Origin: Gemmobacter fulvus | GTDB lineage: Bacteria > Pseudomonadota > Alphaproteobacteria > Rhodobacterales > Rhodobacteraceae | Direction: 5' to 3' | NCBI RefSeq assembly: GCF_018798885.1 | Contig: NZ_CP076361.1 | Span: forward strand, 3,253,501-3,317,500 | DNA length: 64,000 nt | Shown here: piece after piece, positions 2,655-9,611 of the stretch | Layout of the letters: each line of letters opens with the position of its first letter | Position numbering within the stretch: the first letter of the stretch is position 1 | Made by a program: the position numbers and the translations under genes | Notes under the pieces: model-generated | The model's database searches: none | Seen by the model: the letters and a program-made list of their open reading frames with translations, nothing else | What the model was told of the DNA's origin: nothing

Positions 2655-3629
2655 ATGAAAAAGCTACTGACGGGCGCGATGTTTGCCGCACTGGCAACGG
2701 GCGCACAGGCAGCCGATGATGTGACGCTGCAACTGAAATGGGTCACGCAGGCACAGTTTGCCGGTTACTATGTGGCGCAGGCCAAAGGGTTTTACGAGGA
2801 AGAGGGGCTGAATGTCACCATCCTGCCAGGTGGCCCGGATGTGGCACCGACGCAGGTGATTGCGGGCGGTGGTGCCGATGTGGTGGTGGACTGGATGCCC
2901 TCGGCGCTGGCCGCGCGTGAAAAGGGGCTGGCGCTCGTCAATATCGCGCAGCCGTTCAAATCCAGCGGCATGATGCTGACCTGTCTGAAGGACAGCGGCG
3001 TGGCCACCCCTGCCGATTTCAAGGGCAAGACGCTGGGCGTCTGGTTCGGCGGCAACGAATATCCGTTCCTGAACTGGATGAACAAGCTGGGGCTGAAAAC
3101 CGATGGCAGCGATGTCACGGTGCTGAAACAGGGGTTCAACGTCGATCCGCTGTTGCAGAAACAGGCGGCGTGCATTTCGACCATGACCTATAACGAATAT
3201 TGGCAGGTGATCGACGCCGGGGTGACGCCGGAGCAGCTGGTCACCTTCAAATACGAGGACGAAGGCGTGGCGACGCTGGAGGACGGGCTTTATGTGATGG
3301 AGGAGAAGCTCACAGATCCGGCCTTTGAAGAGAAGATGGTGAAATTCGTCCGTGCCAGCATGAAAGGCTGGAAATATGCCGAGGCCAATTCGGATGAAGC
3401 GGCGATGATCGTGCTGGAGAATGACGAGACCGGCGCGCAGACCGAAACGCATCAGAAGCGCATGATGGGCGAGATTGCCAAGCTGACGGCGGGCAGCAAT
3501 GGCGCGCTGGATGCGGCGGATTATGACCGCACGGTGGCGGCGCTGATGTCGGGCGGATCTGATCCGGTGATCACCAAGGCGCCGGAAGGGGCCTGGACGG
3601 CAGCCATCACCGACAAGGCGCTGAAGTAA
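2655..3629 (+). CDS. ABC transporter substrate-binding protein, NMT1/THI5-like
   Basis: This is the periplasmic binding protein of the importer. It has a short signal peptide (MKKLL, then a hydrophobic run ending in AQA about residue 19), followed by the NMT1/THI5 N-lobe pattern LKWVTQAQFAGYYVAQAKGF and a glycine-rich ligand-loop segment. Relatives such as ThiY bind pyrimidine precursors of thiamine. In Rhodobacteraceae, as I recall, similar four-gene sets lie beside pyrimidine or hydantoin degradation genes. A pyrimidine-like ligand is therefore plausible but not shown by the sequence. AUG is preceded by GGAGG, and the gene ends at a strong terminator. Confidence 0.85.
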   Translation: MKKLLTGAMFAALATGAQAADDVTLQLKWVTQAQFAGYYVAQAKGFYEEEGLNVTILPGGPDVAPTQVIAGGGADVVVDWMPSALAAREKGLALVNIAQPFKSSGMMLTCLKDSGVATPADFKGKTLGVWFGGNEYPFLNWMNKLGLKTDGSDVTVLKQGFNVDPLLQKQAACISTMTYNEYWQVIDAGVTPEQLVTFKYEDEGVATLEDGLYVMEEKLTDPAFEEKMVKFVRASMKGWKYAEANSDEAAMIVLENDETGAQTETHQKRMMGEIAKLTAGSNGALDAADYDRTVAALMSGGSDPVITKAPEGAWTAAITDKALK

Positions 3630-3652
3630 GCAGCGCCGCAGGAGATGCGAGG

Positions 3653-3680
3653 GCGCGCCGGGACAACCGGCGCGCTTTTT
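3653..3680 (+). terminator. Rho-independent terminator after the NMT1-type transporter operon
   Basis: A nine-base-pair GC-rich perfect stem (3653-3661 with 3667-3675) with a five-base loop is followed directly by five T residues. It lies 24 bases past the binding-protein stop codon. Confidence 0.9.
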
Positions 3681-3690
3681 CATGCCGTTT

Positions 3691-3758
3691 GGCTGGGGGG
3701 CTTTGCCCCCGGCTCTGCCAGGGCAGAGCCTCCCCCAGGATATTTGCGCCAAGATGAA
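3691..3758 (-). repeat. Dispersed intergenic repeat, copy 1 (reverse orientation)
   Basis: Read on the minus strand, this begins with TTCATCTTGG, continues with CAAATATCCTGGGGG, and ends in a G-rich/C-rich hairpin containing GGGGGCAAAGCCCCC. The same element occurs on the plus strand at 42210-42258 and 57947-57991. This copy carries an additional internal hairpin (GGCTCTGCC/GGCAGAGCC). All three copies are intergenic and close to gene ends. Confidence 0.8.
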
Positions 3759-3815
3759 TTTGCAGGGATGTGTGAAGCGGGGGGAATGGTGTAAATTCCC
3801 TTTCATGCAGGGGAG

Positions 3816-5108
3816 ATGCCGATGCCATTGGGGGCTTTGACCGGAAGCCGCGTGCGGGAGCGGCGGCTGGCGCTGGGGATGCGGCAGGCCGATCTGGCGC
3901 GGGGGGCGGGGATTTCGGCCTCTTATCTGAATCTGATCGAACATAACCGGCGGCGCATTGCGGGCGAGGTTCTGGCGCGGCTGGCGGCGGCGCTGGGCGT
4001 TGAGGTTTCGGTGCTGGAAGAGGGCGCGGAGGGGGCGGTGGCCGAGGCCTTGCGCGCGGCGGCGGGCGAGGCGGGCTCTGCGGCAGAGCTGGACCGGCTG
4101 GAGGAGTTCATCGGCCGCTTTCCGGGCTGGGCGGCGGTGACGGCGGGGATGCAGCGGCGGGTGGGGCAGCTGGAGCGGGCAGTGGCGGCGCTGAATGACC
4201 GGATCGCCCATGACCCGCATCTGAGCCTGGCACTGCATGAGGTGTTGTCGGCGGTCAGTTCGGTGCGCTCGACCGCAGCGATTCTGGCCGAGACGGAGGA
4301 TATCGAGGCTGATTGGCGGGCGCGGTTCCATGCCAATCTGCATCATGACAGCGAAAGGCTGGCGGGCGGGGCCGAGGCGCTGGTGGCCTATCTGGACGGG
4401 TCGGGGCAGGAGACGGCAGCGGGGGTCGCCTCGCCGCAGGAAGAGCTGGACGATTGGTTGGCGGCGCGCGGTTGGCATCTGGCGGCGCTGGAGATGGGCG
4501 GCGATCTGGAGGCGGAGATTGCGCAACTGGCCTCGGGCGCTGCGCGCGATCTGGCGCGGGCGCATGTGGCGCAGGCGCGGGCGGATGTACAGGCGATGCC
4601 CTTGGCGGAGTTTGTGGCGGCGGTGGCCGCGTTGGGGGCGGATCCGGTCTTGCTGGCGGCGCGGCTGGGCACGCGGGTTCTGGCGGTGATGCGCAGGCTC
4701 GCGACGCTGCCCGGGGCCGTGGAAGGGCTGGTGATCTGCGATGCGGCGGGGGCCTTGCTGTTTCGCAAGCCGGCAGAGGGGTTTCAGCCGCCGCGATTTG
4801 GAGCGGCCTGCGCCTTGTGGCCGCTCTATGCGGCGCTGGCGCGGCCGATGATGCCGGTGGCAGCGCGGATCGAGATGACCGGGCGCAGCGGGCGGCGTTT
4901 TCTGGCGCAGAGCTGGTGCGAAACCGAGTGGCCAGGCGGGTTTGGTGGGGTGGAGGTGCGGGCGGCGGCGATGCTGCTGACGCCGGTTGCGGCGGATGGC
5001 AGCCCGGCGCTGCGCGTGGGGCCGACCTGCCGGATCTGCCCCGAGGCGGGCTGCCCGGCGCGGCGCGAAGCCTCGATCATCAGCGAGGCGGGGGCGCTGC
5101 GCCGCTGA
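3816..5108 (+). CDS. XRE-family regulator with ScfR-like C-terminus and a DHp-like middle segment
   Basis: This is a DNA-binding regulator of 430 residues. Residues about 8-65 form a classic HTH_3 domain (RERRLALGMRQADLARGAGI...YLNLIEHNRRRI). The C-terminus has the CxxCxxxxCP-like cysteine cluster (CRICPEAGCP) seen in DUF2083/short-chain fatty acyl-CoA regulators (ScfR, such as PccR). The usual central ImmA/IrrE-type HExxH segment was not seen. Instead residues about 135-190 resemble a histidine kinase dimerisation/phosphotransfer helix pair, with His141 in HEVLSAVSSVRS. No kinase ATP-binding domain is present. The next genes encode a lone receiver and a transporter-kinase, so a signalling link is plausible. 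The start at 3816 is one of two nearby ATGs (3816 and 3822). Confidence 0.75.
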   Translation: MPMPLGALTGSRVRERRLALGMRQADLARGAGISASYLNLIEHNRRRIAGEVLARLAAALGVEVSVLEEGAEGAVAEALRAAAGEAGSAAELDRLEEFIGRFPGWAAVTAGMQRRVGQLERAVAALNDRIAHDPHLSLALHEVLSAVSSVRSTAAILAETEDIEADWRARFHANLHHDSERLAGGAEALVAYLDGSGQETAAGVASPQEELDDWLAARGWHLAALEMGGDLEAEIAQLASGAARDLARAHVAQARADVQAMPLAEFVAAVAALGADPVLLAARLGTRVLAVMRRLATLPGAVEGLVICDAAGALLFRKPAEGFQPPRFGAACALWPLYAALARPMMPVAARIEMTGRSGRRFLAQSWCETEWPGGFGGVEVRAAAMLLTPVAADGSPALRVGPTCRICPEAGCPARREASIISEAGALRR

Positions 5109-5249
5109 GGCACCCCCAAGAGGACCCCAGACTAAGGCATGAGGCGGCGGGGCATATCGGCTTTTGACAGCGCGAGGTTTTGCGCCGATAGTCTGCCGCA
5201 GGGGCGCTGCCTGCGGGTGGCGGAGGGATGTAGCGGAGGGAACGCGATC

Positions 5250-5618
5250 TTGGCGCGCCATGCCATGCTGATCGAAGACGAGCCGAATATCGCGGAGGCG
5301 ATCCGCTTTCTGCTGCACCGGGATGGCTGGCAGGTGTCGGTGCTGGGCGAGGGGGGCAGTGCCGAGGCGCGGGTGCGCGAGGCGCGCCCGGATCTGGTGA
5401 TCCTGGATCTGATGCTGCCGGGGCGCTCCGGGCTGGAAATCCTTCAGGGCCTGCGGGCCGATCCGCTGACCCAGGGCCTGCCGGTGATGATGCTGACCGC
5501 CAAGGGGCAGGGCCGCGACCGGGCGGCAGCAGAACAGGCCGGGGCCGATCTGTTCATGGCCAAGCCGTTTTCCAATGCCGAATTCGTGGCGGCGGCACGG
5601 TCGCTGATCCCGGTATGA
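5250..5618 (+). CDS. Single-domain response regulator (receiver only)
   Basis: This is a CheY-like receiver of about 122 residues with no output domain. The acidic pocket is at Glu9/Asp10, the phosphoacceptor Asp53 is in VILDLMLPG, Thr83 is in MLTAK and Lys105 is in AKPF, so the phosphorylation site is complete. The TTG at 5250 is chosen because GGAGGG at 5235-5240 is well spaced. A longer reading from 5139 would add an implausible Arg/Cys-rich leader, and the ATG at 5265 would start inside the first strand. The stop overlaps the next gene by four bases, tying it to the small membrane protein and the sensor kinase that follow. It probably relays phosphoryl groups to another protein. Confidence 0.82.
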   Translation: MARHAMLIEDEPNIAEAIRFLLHRDGWQVSVLGEGGSAEARVREARPDLVILDLMLPGRSGLEILQGLRADPLTQGLPVMMLTAKGQGRDRAAAEQAGADLFMAKPFSNAEFVAAARSLIPV

Positions 5619-5890
5619 GGCGGCGGCGCGGGCCGGTGTTTCTGGCGCGGCGCAGCTATCGCTTGCGCCGGATGCGCGATGCCGCCCGCCTGTTGCCGAT
5701 TGCGGGGGCGTTTCTGTTCATGCTGCCGATCCTCTGGTCGCCGGGCGAGAGTGCGGGGCAGGATACCGCGCCGGACGGGATGTATCTGTTCGGGGTCTGG
5801 TTCTGCCTGATCCTTGCGGCGGCACTGATGTCGCGCGGGCTGCGCGCGGCATCGGCGGATGACCCTGCCGGGGCGGAGGGCGACGGCTGA
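5615..5890 (+). CDS. Small two-helix membrane protein of unknown function
   Basis: This 91-residue protein starts with an Arg-rich cytoplasmic segment, then has two hydrophobic segments (about residues 26-43 and 57-74) and an acidic tail. It overlaps the receiver gene by four bases, and its stop shares a base with the kinase start, so the three are certainly co-expressed. No family was recognised. Its position suggests an accessory or assembly role for the transporter-type kinase, but that is inference only. Codon use matches its neighbours, which argues that it is real. Confidence 0.7.
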   Translation: MRRRRGPVFLARRSYRLRRMRDAARLLPIAGAFLFMLPILWSPGESAGQDTAPDGMYLFGVWFCLILAAALMSRGLRAASADDPAGAEGDG

Positions 5891-8589
5891 TGCCTTTCAA
5901 CCTGCTGGTTCTGGCCTGCCTGACCTATGTGATCTTCTTGTTCCTTGTGGCCTTCATGGTGGAACGCCGGGCGGCGCAGGGGGCGGCGCGCTGGCTGCGC
6001 TCGCCGCTGGTCTATACGCTGTCGCTCAGCATCTATTGCACGGCCTGGACCTTTTACGGCGCGGTCGGCTATGCGGCGCGGTCGGGGCTGGAGTTCCTGA
6101 CCATCTATCTGGGGCCGACTCTGGTGTTCGTGGGCTGGTGGTGGATCCTGCGCAAGCTGGTGCATATCGGGCGGCAACAGCGCGTCACCTCGATTGCTGA
6201 CATGATTTCAAGCCGTTACGGCAAGTCGAACCTGCTTGGCGTGATCGTGACGGTGATCTGTGTGGTGGCGGCAACGCCCTATATCGCGCTGCAACTGCAA
6301 TCGGTGACACTCAGCTTCGGGGTGTTTGCCGCCGCGGGTTCCTATGGCTGGGCGATGCCCGATACCAATTCCACCGCCTTCTGGGTGGCCTGCGGTCTTG
6401 CGCTGTTCACCATCCTGTTCGGCACCCGCAATCTGGATGCGAATGAACAGCATACCGGGGTGGTGACGGCGATTGCGGTGGAGGCGGTGGTCAAGCTGGT
6501 GGCGCTGCTGGCGGTTGGCATCTTTGTGGTCTGGTTCGTGGCCTCGGGCCCGGCCGACATCATCATGCGCATCAATTACTCCAAGATCGCGGATTGGGAT
6601 CTGGTGCCGTCGCGCTGGGCCGGGCTGACCTTCCTGTCGGCGGCGGCGGTGATCACGCTGCCGCGCATGTTTCAGGTGCTGGTGGTGGAAAACAGCGACG
6701 AGCGGCATCTGGCGACCGCCAGCTGGGCCTTTCCGCTCTATCTGCTGGGCATGAGCCTGTTCGTGGTGCCGATTGCGGTGGTGGGGTTGCAGGTGCTGCC
6801 CGCCGGGGCGAACCCCGATCTGTTCGTGCTGACCCTGCCGCTGAGCCAGGGGCAGGGCGGTCTGGCGATGCTGGCCTTTCTGGGCGGGTTTTCCTCTGCC
6901 ACATCGATGGTGATCGTGGCGGCGATTGCGCTGGCGACCATGGTGTCGAACCACATCGTGATGCCGCTGTGGTTGAGCATGCGGCCCGCGCAATCGGTTT
7001 CGGGCGATGTGCGGCGGCTGGTGCTGCTGTCGCGCAGGCTGTCGATCGCCGGGGTTCTGGGGCTGGGCTATCTTTACTTCGCGCTGTCGGGCGGTTCGGC
7101 GGCGCTGGCGGCCATCGGGCTGATTTCCTTTGTCGGCGTGGCGCAGATGCTGCCTGCGATGCTGGGCGGCATCTTCTGGCGCGGGGCGACCCGGCAGGGG
7201 GCGGCGCTGGGGCTGGTGCTGGGCTTTGTGGTCTGGGGGTATACGCTGTTCCTGCCCAGTTTCGGGCCGGATGGCGTATTGCCGCTGTCGCTGTTCCAGC
7301 ACGGGCCCTTCGGGATCAGCTGGCTGCGCCCCCGCGCGCTGTTCGGGGTGGAGGGCATGGATCCGCTGGTCCATGCACTGTTCTGGAGCCTGGTGATCAA
7401 CACCACCGCCTTCACGCTCGGATCGCTGCTCAGCTTTCCGGGGCCGGTGGAGCGGGTGCAGGGGCTGGCCTTTGTGAATGTGTTCGATACCGAACGGGCC
7501 GAGCCGCGTGGCTGGGCCCAGGGGCAGGCCGAACCCGAGGCGCTTCTGGTGATGGCGCAGCGGATTCTGGGCGATGAAGCGGCGCTGAATTTCTTTGAGG
7601 CGCAGGCCCGCGCGCAGGGAATGGAAGGGTATCTGCCCGATCCAGTGCCGGAATTTCTGGGCGCGCTGGAACGGCGGCTGGCCAGTTCGGTGGGCGCGGC
7701 CACCGCCCATGCGATGATTTCGGAACTGGCCGGGCGGGCGCGGGTGACGGTGGCCGATCTGATGCGGGTGGCGGATGAAACCGCGCAGATCATGGAATAT
7801 TCCAGCAAGCTGGAAAGCCAGCGTGAAGAAATGACCCGCACCGCCCGCCAATTGCGCGAGGCGAATGAAAAACTGACGCAGATTTCGGTGCAGAAGGATG
7901 CGTTTCTCAGCCAGATCAGCCATGAATTGCGCACGCCGATGACCTCGATCCGCGCGTTTTCCGAGATCATGATGGAAGGCGACATGCCGCCCGAGATGGC
8001 CGAAAACTATGCGCGTATCATCCATGAAGAGGCGATCCGTCTGACGCGGCTGCTGGATGATCTGCTGGATCTGTCGGTGCTGGAAAACGGCACGGTGCAA
8101 TTGAATCTGAAACTCGCCAACCTGTCGGAGCTTCTGGATAAATCCCTGCGTGCGGCGGCGCATACCAAACCCGAGCGGCTGTTTTCGATCAGCCGCGACC
8201 TGCCCGCCGAGGCGATTTTCCTGCGCACCGACCCTGACCGGCTGGCGCAGGTGTTCATCAACCTGATCTCCAACGCGCGCAAATATTGCGATGCGGCGCG
8301 GCCCGAGCTACGCATTTCGGTGCGGCAGAAGGGGGCGCGGGTGGTGGTGGATTTCATCGACAATGGTGGGGGGATTCCCAAGGACAGTCAGGCGCTCATC
8401 TTCGAGAAATTCGCCCGGCTGACCGATCAGACCCGCGCCGGCGGGGCTGGGCTGGGGTTGGCGATCTGCCGCGAGATCATGGCCAATCTGGGCGGCTCCA
8501 TCAGCTATCTGCCCGGGCAGCGCGGCGCGGCCTTCCGGGTGACGCTGCCGTTGCGGCTGGAAAAAATGCCGCCCGAGGTTGCTGCGTAA
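5890..8589 (+). CDS. Sodium/solute symporter-type sensor histidine kinase (CrbS/CbrA-like)
   Basis: This is an 899-residue fusion. Residues 1 to about 490 carry the many hydrophobic helices of an SSS (SLC5) transporter. A linker and coiled coil (about 600-665) lead to a kinase core: H-box SHELRTP with His678, N-box NLISNARKY, G1 DNGGG and G2 GGAGLGLAIC. The transporter half probably senses or moves a substrate and controls kinase activity. Related proteins CbrA and CrbS respond to histidine/carbon status and to acetate respectively. The likely partner is the adjacent receiver. The ligand cannot be read from the sequence, although the ScfR-like regulator upstream hints at short-chain fatty acids. 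Confidence 0.9.
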   Translation: MPFNLLVLACLTYVIFLFLVAFMVERRAAQGAARWLRSPLVYTLSLSIYCTAWTFYGAVGYAARSGLEFLTIYLGPTLVFVGWWWILRKLVHIGRQQRVTSIADMISSRYGKSNLLGVIVTVICVVAATPYIALQLQSVTLSFGVFAAAGSYGWAMPDTNSTAFWVACGLALFTILFGTRNLDANEQHTGVVTAIAVEAVVKLVALLAVGIFVVWFVASGPADIIMRINYSKIADWDLVPSRWAGLTFLSAAAVITLPRMFQVLVVENSDERHLATASWAFPLYLLGMSLFVVPIAVVGLQVLPAGANPDLFVLTLPLSQGQGGLAMLAFLGGFSSATSMVIVAAIALATMVSNHIVMPLWLSMRPAQSVSGDVRRLVLLSRRLSIAGVLGLGYLYFALSGGSAALAAIGLISFVGVAQMLPAMLGGIFWRGATRQGAALGLVLGFVVWGYTLFLPSFGPDGVLPLSLFQHGPFGISWLRPRALFGVEGMDPLVHALFWSLVINTTAFTLGSLLSFPGPVERVQGLAFVNVFDTERAEPRGWAQGQAEPEALLVMAQRILGDEAALNFFEAQARAQGMEGYLPDPVPEFLGALERRLASSVGAATAHAMISELAGRARVTVADLMRVADETAQIMEYSSKLESQREEMTRTARQLREANEKLTQISVQKDAFLSQISHELRTPMTSIRAFSEIMMEGDMPPEMAENYARIIHEEAIRLTRLLDDLLDLSVLENGTVQLNLKLANLSELLDKSLRAAAHTKPERLFSISRDLPAEAIFLRTDPDRLAQVFINLISNARKYCDAARPELRISVRQKGARVVVDFIDNGGGIPKDSQALIFEKFARLTDQTRAGGAGLGLAICREIMANLGGSISYLPGQRGAAFRVTLPLRLEKMPPEVAA

Positions 8590-8624: not shown

Positions 8625-9611
8625 ATGGTGGCAAGGAAGCGGTCCGTGGATCAGGGTGTGATCAGGCGAAAACTGACAGCGGTTCCGGCGGCGCAGGCGA
8701 TGGCCGAGGGCGGGGCCGCGCGCGTCTGGCCACTGGCGCTGGCGCGGACGGCGCGTGACCGGCTCGGCCTTGGGCTCGACTGCGGGCCGGTGCGGCTGGA
8801 TCGGTTCTCGTTGGCGGAATTGCTGGATCTGCCGCCCGACCGGGCGCTGATCGCGGTGCTGGAAGGCCCGCGCAATGCGATGGGGGTGCTGATCCTCAGC
8901 CCCGAGGTGCTGGCCGCCGTGATCGAAATGCAAACCCTGGGCAAGGTGACGCAGCAGCCGCTGATCCAGCGCAGGCCGACACGGACCGATGCCGCAATGG
9001 TGGCCGACTATCTGGATGCGGTGCTGATCGCGTTTGAAACCGCGCTGGCGGCGGATGCCGATCTGGTCTGGACCGACGGCTTTCGCTACGCCTCGTTTCT
9101 GGAAGAGGCGCGGCCACTGGCGCTGATGCTGGAGGATACGGCCTATAAGGTGCTGCGCTGCGACTGCGATCTGGGCGGGGCGCGGCAGGGCGGGCTGGTG
9201 CTGGCGCTGCCCGCCGAGGGGCATGGGCGGCGACCGGAGCGGGCGCAGGCGCAGCTCGCGCCGGATCCGGGGCTGCGTATGCAGTTTTCGTCAGATCTGC
9301 AGGCGCAGGTTCTGGCGGCAGAGGTGCGGGTTCAGGCGGTTCTGCACCGTGTCAGCCTGCCGCTGTCGGCGGTTCTGGCCTTGCAGCCCGGCGATCTGCT
9401 GCCCCTGCCCACCGCCGCGCTCGACCGGATCGAACTGGCGGGGCAGGATGGGCTGAAGCGCGGTTTGGGCAAGCTGGGCCAGCATCGCGGCATGCGGGCC
9501 ATCCGCCTGCTGGCCGATGATCAGGCGGCGATGCCGACGCCCGCCTTGCCGCAAAGCGCCGATCCGGTGCCCGCACCACCCGCCCGGCTTCCGCTGACGG
9601 GAACGGGCTGA
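8625..9611 (+). CDS. FliM/FliN-family (SPOA domain) protein, isolated from flagellar genes
   Basis: This protein of 328 residues has a FliM-like middle part (about 60-210) and a C-terminal SPOA/FliN-type domain (about 235-300) containing the pattern VSLPLSAVLALQPGDLLPLP. SPOA domains build the C-ring of flagella and the sorting platform of type III secretion. No other flagellar or secretion gene is in the window. It follows the sensor kinase by 35 bases on the same strand and may be read through from it. The ATG at 8625 has AGAAGG just upstream. It might be a degenerate or alternative switch protein; its role is uncertain. Confidence 0.7.
   Translation: MVARKRSVDQGVIRRKLTAVPAAQAMAEGGAARVWPLALARTARDRLGLGLDCGPVRLDRFSLAELLDLPPDRALIAVLEGPRNAMGVLILSPEVLAAVIEMQTLGKVTQQPLIQRRPTRTDAAMVADYLDAVLIAFETALAADADLVWTDGFRYASFLEEARPLALMLEDTAYKVLRCDCDLGGARQGGLVLALPAEGHGRRPERAQAQLAPDPGLRMQFSSDLQAQVLAAEVRVQAVLHRVSLPLSAVLALQPGDLLPLPTAALDRIELAGQDGLKRGLGKLGQHRGMRAIRLLADDQAAMPTPALPQSADPVPAPPARLPLTGTG

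Follow-up and report, generated by a model that had tools for sequence, protein, structure and literature searches.

A DHp domain of histidine-kinase type within an ScfR-derived regulator encoded beside a lone receiver

The output of a bacterial two-component system is usually a receiver and an effector on one chain. In the stretch of DNA analysed here (the window, 64,000 nucleotides of Gemmobacter fulvus), the gene for a receiver lies between those for a DNA-binding regulator and a histidine kinase. The receiver has no output-domain match in Pfam and stands alone, and it is the effector that bears the kinase-type half of the interface, an arrangement that recurs in many alphaproteobacterial families. 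The locus raises the question of what this kinase-like segment of the regulator is, how it came to be there, and whether it could be the point at which a lone receiver acts on gene expression.

Domain layout of the regulator and its neighbours

The features of the locus are collected in Table 1. The regulator begins with an HTH_3 domain and ends with a ScfRs domain, PF09856, which was matched in 28/28 orthologues (E<=10). The three cysteines of its C-X2-C-X4-C motif are kept in 106-107 of 108 close orthologues, the remainder being gaps; the same motif has been described for relatives of PrpR (PMC6765138). Both terminal domains, with the cysteine cluster, bear out the first-pass annotation of this DNA, and so does the absence of an ATP-binding domain: hmmscan gave the window regulator no match to HATPase, receiver (Response_reg), M78 or HisKA families, and HATPase_c was neither among the families listed (25 of 38) for 28 orthologues nor listed for the 20 long or divergent homologues that were scanned. 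When a profile of the 28 orthologues was compared with Mycobacterium tuberculosis PrpR, residues 229-424 were matched, 58-134 were matched very weakly (12 bits) and 135-228 were unmatched. PrpR also ranked first in a Foldseek search with the full AF2 model (6cz6, E 6.7e-9).

The true start of the regulator may be the second ATG (3822) of an in-frame pair at window 3816-3824, because the first abuts a Shine-Dalgarno-like AGGGGAG. The second has the better Shine-Dalgarno spacing, and the script-placed starts of several orthologues fall at the ATG aligned with it. An antisense open frame of 884 aa (window 2664-5318, minus strand) overlaps the gene and is most likely a high-GC artefact. Upstream dyads, sought in 80 loci, were weak, mostly GC-rich repeats, and occurred in at most 8/80 loci.

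The genes for the receiver, a small ORF and the kinase all lie downstream of the regulator on the same strand. Between the regulator and the start of the kinase gene lie 0.8 kb, not the 2 kb first supposed, and the His678 codon of the kinase is about 3.7 kb from that of His141 in the regulator. We take this kinase to be of the SLC5 type. The label is given by analogy with the CbrA/CrbS kinases (PMC9100948, PMC7918813), and the N-terminal part of the kinase matched no transporter family in Pfam. Among 175 aligned tandem receivers the acidic pair, the acceptor Asp and the Lys are invariant, and the fifth site is Thr (169) or Ser (6). The 91-aa ORF between receiver and kinase was matched by tblastn in 70/80 loci at E<=1e-3 and in 24/50 at E<=1e-2; it has no NCBIfam match at E<=1 and no Pfam match at E<=0.01, and recalls cbrX, a small ORF upstream of cbrA (PMC6591292). 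The product of the gene after the kinase (window 8625-9611) has a C-terminal domain of FliM/FliN type (FliMN_C, 40.6 bits) and scores far under the NCBIfam cut-off for FliM (39.9 against 219.6 bits).

Table 1. Features of the regulator locus, in window coordinates
Feature	Position	Strand	Basis or remark
Regulator gene, ScfR-derived with DHp-like insertion, 430 aa	3816..5108	+	start possibly 3822
HTH_3 DNA-binding domain, residues 13-66	3852..4013	+	Pfam 47.9 bits, cut-off 23
DHp-like helix 1, residues 134-159	4215..4292	+	AF2 model; profile match to kinase DHp
His141 codon, candidate phospho-acceptor	4236..4238	+	conservation across orthologues
DHp-like helix 2, residues 165-199	4308..4412	+	AF2 model; confidence 61 over 191-200
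Reduced IrrE-like DIII remnant, residues about 207-297	4434..4706	+	alignment with canonical and long homologues; no Peptidase_M78 match
ScfRs C-terminal domain PF09856, residues 306-421	4731..5078	+	41.5 bits, cut-off 24; PrpR homology 229-424
C-X2-C-X4-C, Cys405/408/413, candidate [4Fe4S] ligands	5028..5054	+	conservation
Receiver-only response regulator	5139..5618, possible start 5265	+	PF00072 85.2 bits; acceptor Asp codon 5406-5408
Small 91-aa ORF with hydrophobic segments, between receiver and kinase	5615..5890	+	tblastn match in 94/130 loci
Transporter-like (SLC5/CbrA-type) histidine kinase, 899 aa	5890..8589	+	residues 6-460 vs PDB 10ed_A 'histidine kinase', E 1.1e-67
Partner-kinase HisKA (DHp)	7894..8091	+	62.3 bits; His678 at 7921-7923
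Partner-kinase HATPase_c	8227..8556	+	87.9 bits

Fold, homology and origin of the hairpin

A two-helix hairpin, the fold that the first-pass annotation had named beforehand as a check on its reading, is indeed what AF2 predicts (80 sequences, mean pLDDT 88.8): the two helices of Table 1 pair with each other after a long helix, 103-132. Over ten-residue blocks the pLDDT is 77, 90, 95, 97, 95 and 86 across 131-190, and 61 across 191-200; the segment modelled in isolation again formed two long helices. Submitted to Foldseek by itself, the hairpin found no match at E<=0.001; nine of the first ten rows were two-component chains (E 0.1-0.5), with other helical bundles lower.

Residues 135-190 had been read at first pass as HisKA-like, aligning position by position with the DHp of the neighbouring kinase. 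The likeness did not appear in direct hmmscan of the window protein, nor was HisKA among the families listed (25 of 38) for 28 close orthologues, and it was recovered with an orthologue profile and through the homologues. The pairwise local alignment of the two segments covers about 47 residues with one gap, at a score reached by 1/2000 shuffles, which by itself is suggestive; it is the profile evidence that settles homology. A hairpin profile was built from close orthologues, with long homologues excluded, and run against the 9,493 six-frame ORFs of the collected loci. At E<=1e-3 the matches were 94 ORFs of regulators and 64 of kinases, the latter with 62 distinct segments and a best whole-sequence E of 8e-11; up to E=10 nothing in this set beyond regulators and kinases was matched. 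The window's own partner kinase was matched at 1.7e-4; of the 23 other HisKA loci of the same genome, a single one fell below E=1 (L122, 0.03). When the comparison was turned round, 63/63 regulator hairpins scored higher with a profile of partner-kinase DHp domains than with a profile from 15 other kinases. A Pfam scan of 20 long or divergent homologues listed HisKA in 15 and placed it above the gathering cut-off in four (L170, 33.8 bits; L247, 33.0; L249, 38.7; L250, 31.9), all four of which also pass the cut-offs for HTH_3, M78 and ScfRs.

By profile homology, then, the hairpin is a DHp domain, closest to the DHp of the partner kinase. Chance resemblance is ruled out by the profile matches together with the uniform preference for the partner-kinase profile. 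In a FastTree phylogeny of 131 sequences the 63 regulator hairpins form one clade (local support 0.974), and the tree does not resolve the source kinase.

How the domain came to be in the regulator can be read from its relatives. The zone aligned to residues 128-205 has 78 residues in the window regulator and 9-12 in five canonical ScfR paralogues (L111-L113, L177, L178), giving about 65-70 extra residues. We read these as an insertion, because long homologues combine HTH, HisKA, IrrE-like and ScfR domains in one chain and the canonical paralogues are without the hairpin. That the hairpin might be a diverged piece of DIII was rejected on the same alignment, in which the long homologues have both. 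The DIII zone itself (206-262) has 57 residues in the window regulator. The five canonical paralogues have 130-137 there, and five long hairpin-bearing homologues 134-142, implying that about 75-85 residues of the IrrE-like domain are missing from the window type; lengths of 89 (L174) and 113 (L173) are intermediate. Peptidase_M78 was above its cut-off in all 15 homologues longer than 500 aa among the 20 scanned, was listed in none of the five shorter ones, and was found in 1/28 orthologues (E 4e-4). These comparisons go beyond the earlier annotation: in longer homologues the hairpin is inserted beside the IrrE-like domain, and the window protein seems to have lost its middle domain later.

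Two of the long homologues deserve separate mention. In L249 (7984-9612, minus strand) the hairpin, HELRTFLTSIRSFSEIL, is a kinase-type H-box except at Pro(+5), on the same chain as HTH, M78 and ScfRs, and it may closely resemble the ancestral form. In L170 (4915-10569) the regulator gene is convergent with the kinase and receiver genes, and the hairpin is among the most kinase-like.

Within the window's family, an orthologue was found at E<=1e-60 in 32 of 37 genomes (G000-G036), some in split frames; G014, G018 and G027 carry a divergent or longer form of the regulator. A class-wide search of 385 genomes gave a near-full match to a model of DII plus hairpin in 44, of which 39 belong to families other than the window's, spread over 20 family codes. 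When 299 genomes across the phylum were searched, no listed match from outside the class spanned the whole of that model, and the strongest of those listed fall in frames of about 900 aa, like partner-type kinases.

Conserved residues and gene order

Conservation was followed in several sets of sequences. The 80-locus set was drawn from the matches listed, and at least 577 relatives were confirmed; set A2 omits L075 (short), and set A4 holds the hairpins from 55/80 A2 rows. The regulator could be extracted from 208 of 211 loci (L067, L069 and L302 yielded none), and six of the 208 duplicate another sequence, leaving 202 distinct. The set of 108 close orthologues omits L001, which duplicates the window, and L020 and L027, whose frames are broken or split.

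The candidate acceptor, His141, sits within HEVLSAVSSVRS. Its conservation among orthologues had been set as a further check and proved complete, at 108/108 close orthologues (104 distinct sequences). Across all extracted members the His is kept in 199/208 (193/202 distinct), and in 42/50 divergent ones. The nine exceptions (four Phe, three Tyr, two Gln) represent about five lineages only, three without and two with a tandem receiver. Since two of the nine His-less members have a tandem receiver, the acceptor His is not always needed.

The surrounding H-box has lost residues that the kinases keep. Partner kinases retain His, Glu(+1), Arg(+3), Thr(+4) and Pro(+5) in 182/182 cases; among regulators Pro(+5) occurs in 0/202 distinct sequences and Arg(+3) in 6/208. 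An acid at +1 is kept as Glu/Asp in 107/108 close orthologues, and in divergent members it is Glu in only 9/50. Position +4 is Ser, Thr or Asn in 107/108 close and 49/50 divergent regulators, most commonly Ser (153/208). In CrdS and HK853 the +1 acid is needed only for kinase activity, and the +4 Thr/Asn of HisKA domains has been assigned to phosphatase activity only (PMC3510030). With the acid drifting and the His and Ser/Thr/Asn(+4) kept in divergent members, phosphotransfer or receiver chemistry fits the hairpin better than autokinase activity. The retention of the acid in close orthologues does not discriminate, and pure phosphotransfer does not require it.

The face that a receiver would meet is shared with the partner kinases. 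Arg(+10) is found in 153/166 regulators and 164/166 partner kinases, against 3/19 other kinases of the same genome, and Ile(+15) in 166/166 regulators and 159/166 partner kinases. At position +8, 164/166 regulators have Ala/Ser and 165/166 kinases have Ser; this position corresponds to A268 of HK853, which is changed in PDB 4jau, an entry titled as a rewired interface. In the core of the hairpin, Ile156, Phe171 and Leu182 are present in 50/50 divergent members.

Gene order is conserved too. The receiver gene follows the regulator in tandem in 183/208 loci, 179 of which also have an SLC5-type kinase. The acceptor His is kept in 181/183 tandem loci and in 18/25 others (Fisher p 5e-6, uncorrected for relatedness and with few independent losses). 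Counting distinct sequences only (202), 175 of 177 tandem and 18 of 25 non-tandem members have it; among non-tandem rows with at least 1,500 bases downstream the figure is 17/20 (p 0.007). In four loci under one family code (L252-L254, L256) the His is replaced by Phe, and receiver and kinase lie 7.5-8.3 kb off on the opposite strand. These loci are a natural test group for docking-only or decayed function. Mutual information, computed across 166 loci between regulator, receiver and kinase, gave as its top pairs mostly columns of the regulator's HTH and C-terminal parts; the kinase-DHp positive control failed, the top pairs lying in the CA domain.

A proposed route, its rivals and known systems

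On these observations (DHp homology, insertion, a conserved His, loss of kinase-specific residues and conserved gene order) we base a proposal. The regulator is quite probably a two-component output protein whose input arrives by way of a DHp and not of a receiver domain; a signal would pass from the kinase to the lone receiver, on to the hairpin and so to DNA. The first-pass annotation had suggested, with a hedge, that this transcription factor either takes up phosphate or is a docking site for a receiver, and the DHp homology, the conserved His, the drift of the +1 acid and the prevalence of the lone receiver support that suggestion.

The intact domains suggest that the SLC5-type kinase would autophosphorylate and pass its phosphate to the lone receiver. 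The phosphorylated receiver would then bind the dimeric DHp-like hairpin, docking as it would on its own kinase; the shared H-box face and the tandem genes point to this step, and we consider it likely that the receiver engages the hairpin. Most likely the phosphoryl group would go on to His141, making a His-Asp-His relay that ends on a DNA-binding protein. Phospho-dependent docking alone would also suffice as the last step, and we regard the case for transfer from receiver to His141 as evenly balanced. From the hairpin the signal could run via helix 103-132 to the HTH domains and alter DNA binding. The C-terminal ScfR/Fe-S part may supply an acyl-CoA or iron input; CoA binding by the window protein is uncertain, and doubtful, because DIII is reduced. 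Kinship with ScfR and the analogy with CrbS/RpuS suggest that the subject of the system is small carboxylate or acyl-CoA metabolism. The complete picture would have a DHp inside a DNA-binding protein as the last acceptor of a His-Asp-His phosphorelay, an acyl-CoA/Fe-S regulator having acquired this DHp as a copy from the partner kinase, and an external solute signal and the internal acyl-CoA state meeting on one factor. We advance it tentatively, as falling a little short of an even prospect.

If true, two-component systems would have a third kind of ending, and gene control by some lone receivers without an output domain would be explained. The regulator would show, from nature, how a kinase domain can pass into the transcription factor of its own pathway, and would connect acyl-CoA regulators with a sensor kinase that resembles a transporter.

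The main rival is an allosteric one, in which the phosphorylated receiver docks on the hairpin and its state is passed on with no phosphate reaching His141. Caulobacter DivL has Tyr in place of the His, and its DHp senses a receiver in a phospho-specific way (PMC4211667); Tyr stands at this site in three of our 208 members, two of them with a tandem receiver (L168, L299); these variants may work by docking without chemistry, as DivL does. Docking alone, however, does not demand the His that is retained throughout nearly all tandem loci, and the Y550H change in DivL left DivK~P binding unchanged (PMC4211667), so we hold this reading to be possible but unlikely. Information could also flow in the opposite direction, with the acyl-CoA/Fe-S domain informing the two-component system, if the hairpin dephosphorylated or titrated the receiver. 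The +4 residue would suit such a phosphatase, being Ser/Thr/Asn almost throughout, where phosphatase-competent HisKA domains have Thr/Asn; but Ser, the commonest residue here, is absent among the substitutions reported in the available part of PMC3510030, and the lone receiver would be left without an identified output. We think this improbable.

Three further readings were weighed. A DHp is a dimerisation domain, and its core positions are kept in divergent members as well as the His or better, so the hairpin might merely dimerise, with His141 retained for packing or dimer geometry; that the H-box face (His141, Ser/Thr at +4, Arg(+10)) is conserved together with an adjacent receiver speaks against this, and makes it quite improbable. 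Mixed bundles with the DHp of the partner kinase, modulating that kinase, would be natural for a hairpin nearest to it in sequence, but are very unlikely given that Pro(+5) is always and Arg(+3) nearly always replaced. His141 might, lastly, be an acyl-CoA pocket residue, equivalent to RamB His143 or PrpR Phe155, and not a phospho-acceptor. It lies at a comparable distance from the N-terminus, and MtRamB has a His in place of PrpR Phe155, a residue of DIII helix 1 discussed as an acyl contact (PMC6765138). Canonical ScfR paralogues, however, lack the hairpin, their DIII start aligns after it, and long homologues have both; the RamB His143/PrpR Phe155 position falls after the hairpin in the alignment, and we rejected this reading as scarcely credible.

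The proposed output protein, with its DHp input, combines parts that are familiar separately. We know of no described DNA-binding regulator of such design, and the titles and abstract beginnings listed by searches of open-licence papers described none with a DHp input domain. ScfR/IsaR regulators (PrpR, RamB, PccR, MccR) have the same N-terminal HTH and PF09856 C-terminus with its C-X2-C-X4-C motif, whereas the window type has a DHp-like hairpin before DIII, a reduced DIII, and a gene beside those of a receiver and an SLC5-type kinase. Pden_1785 of Paracoccus denitrificans is presumably an orthologue of the window regulator. It has been presented as a member of the ScfR network whose gene is clustered with a two-component system, and was set aside there (PMC10370305); the word histidine is absent from the main text of that paper, which does not discuss a DHp.

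With the HisKA/DHp domains of SLC5 (CbrA/CrbS-type) kinases the hairpin shares homology at profile level, the H-box His, the hairpin fold and the Ile-Arg face, but it belongs to a DNA-binding protein that has no CA domain and has lost Pro(+5) and almost always Arg(+3). Spo0B is a dimeric DHp acting in a phosphorelay; ChpT and Spo0B carry a degenerate CA-like domain after the DHp and pass phosphate to another receiver, whereas the regulator's hairpin precedes DIII/ScfR in a DNA-binding protein. ChpT, too, offers a dimeric DHp to a phosphorelay (PMC3433190). DivL uses its DHp as a receiver input, as we propose for the regulator (PMC4211667), but is not an HTH regulator, keeps PAS and CA domains, and has Tyr at the site where the window protein, like most members, has His. 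Finally, in CrbS/R and RpuS/R an SLC5-type kinase likewise controls carbon use (PMC9100948); their receivers are LuxR-family regulators, whereas here the receiver stands alone and the DHp sits on the DNA-binding part.
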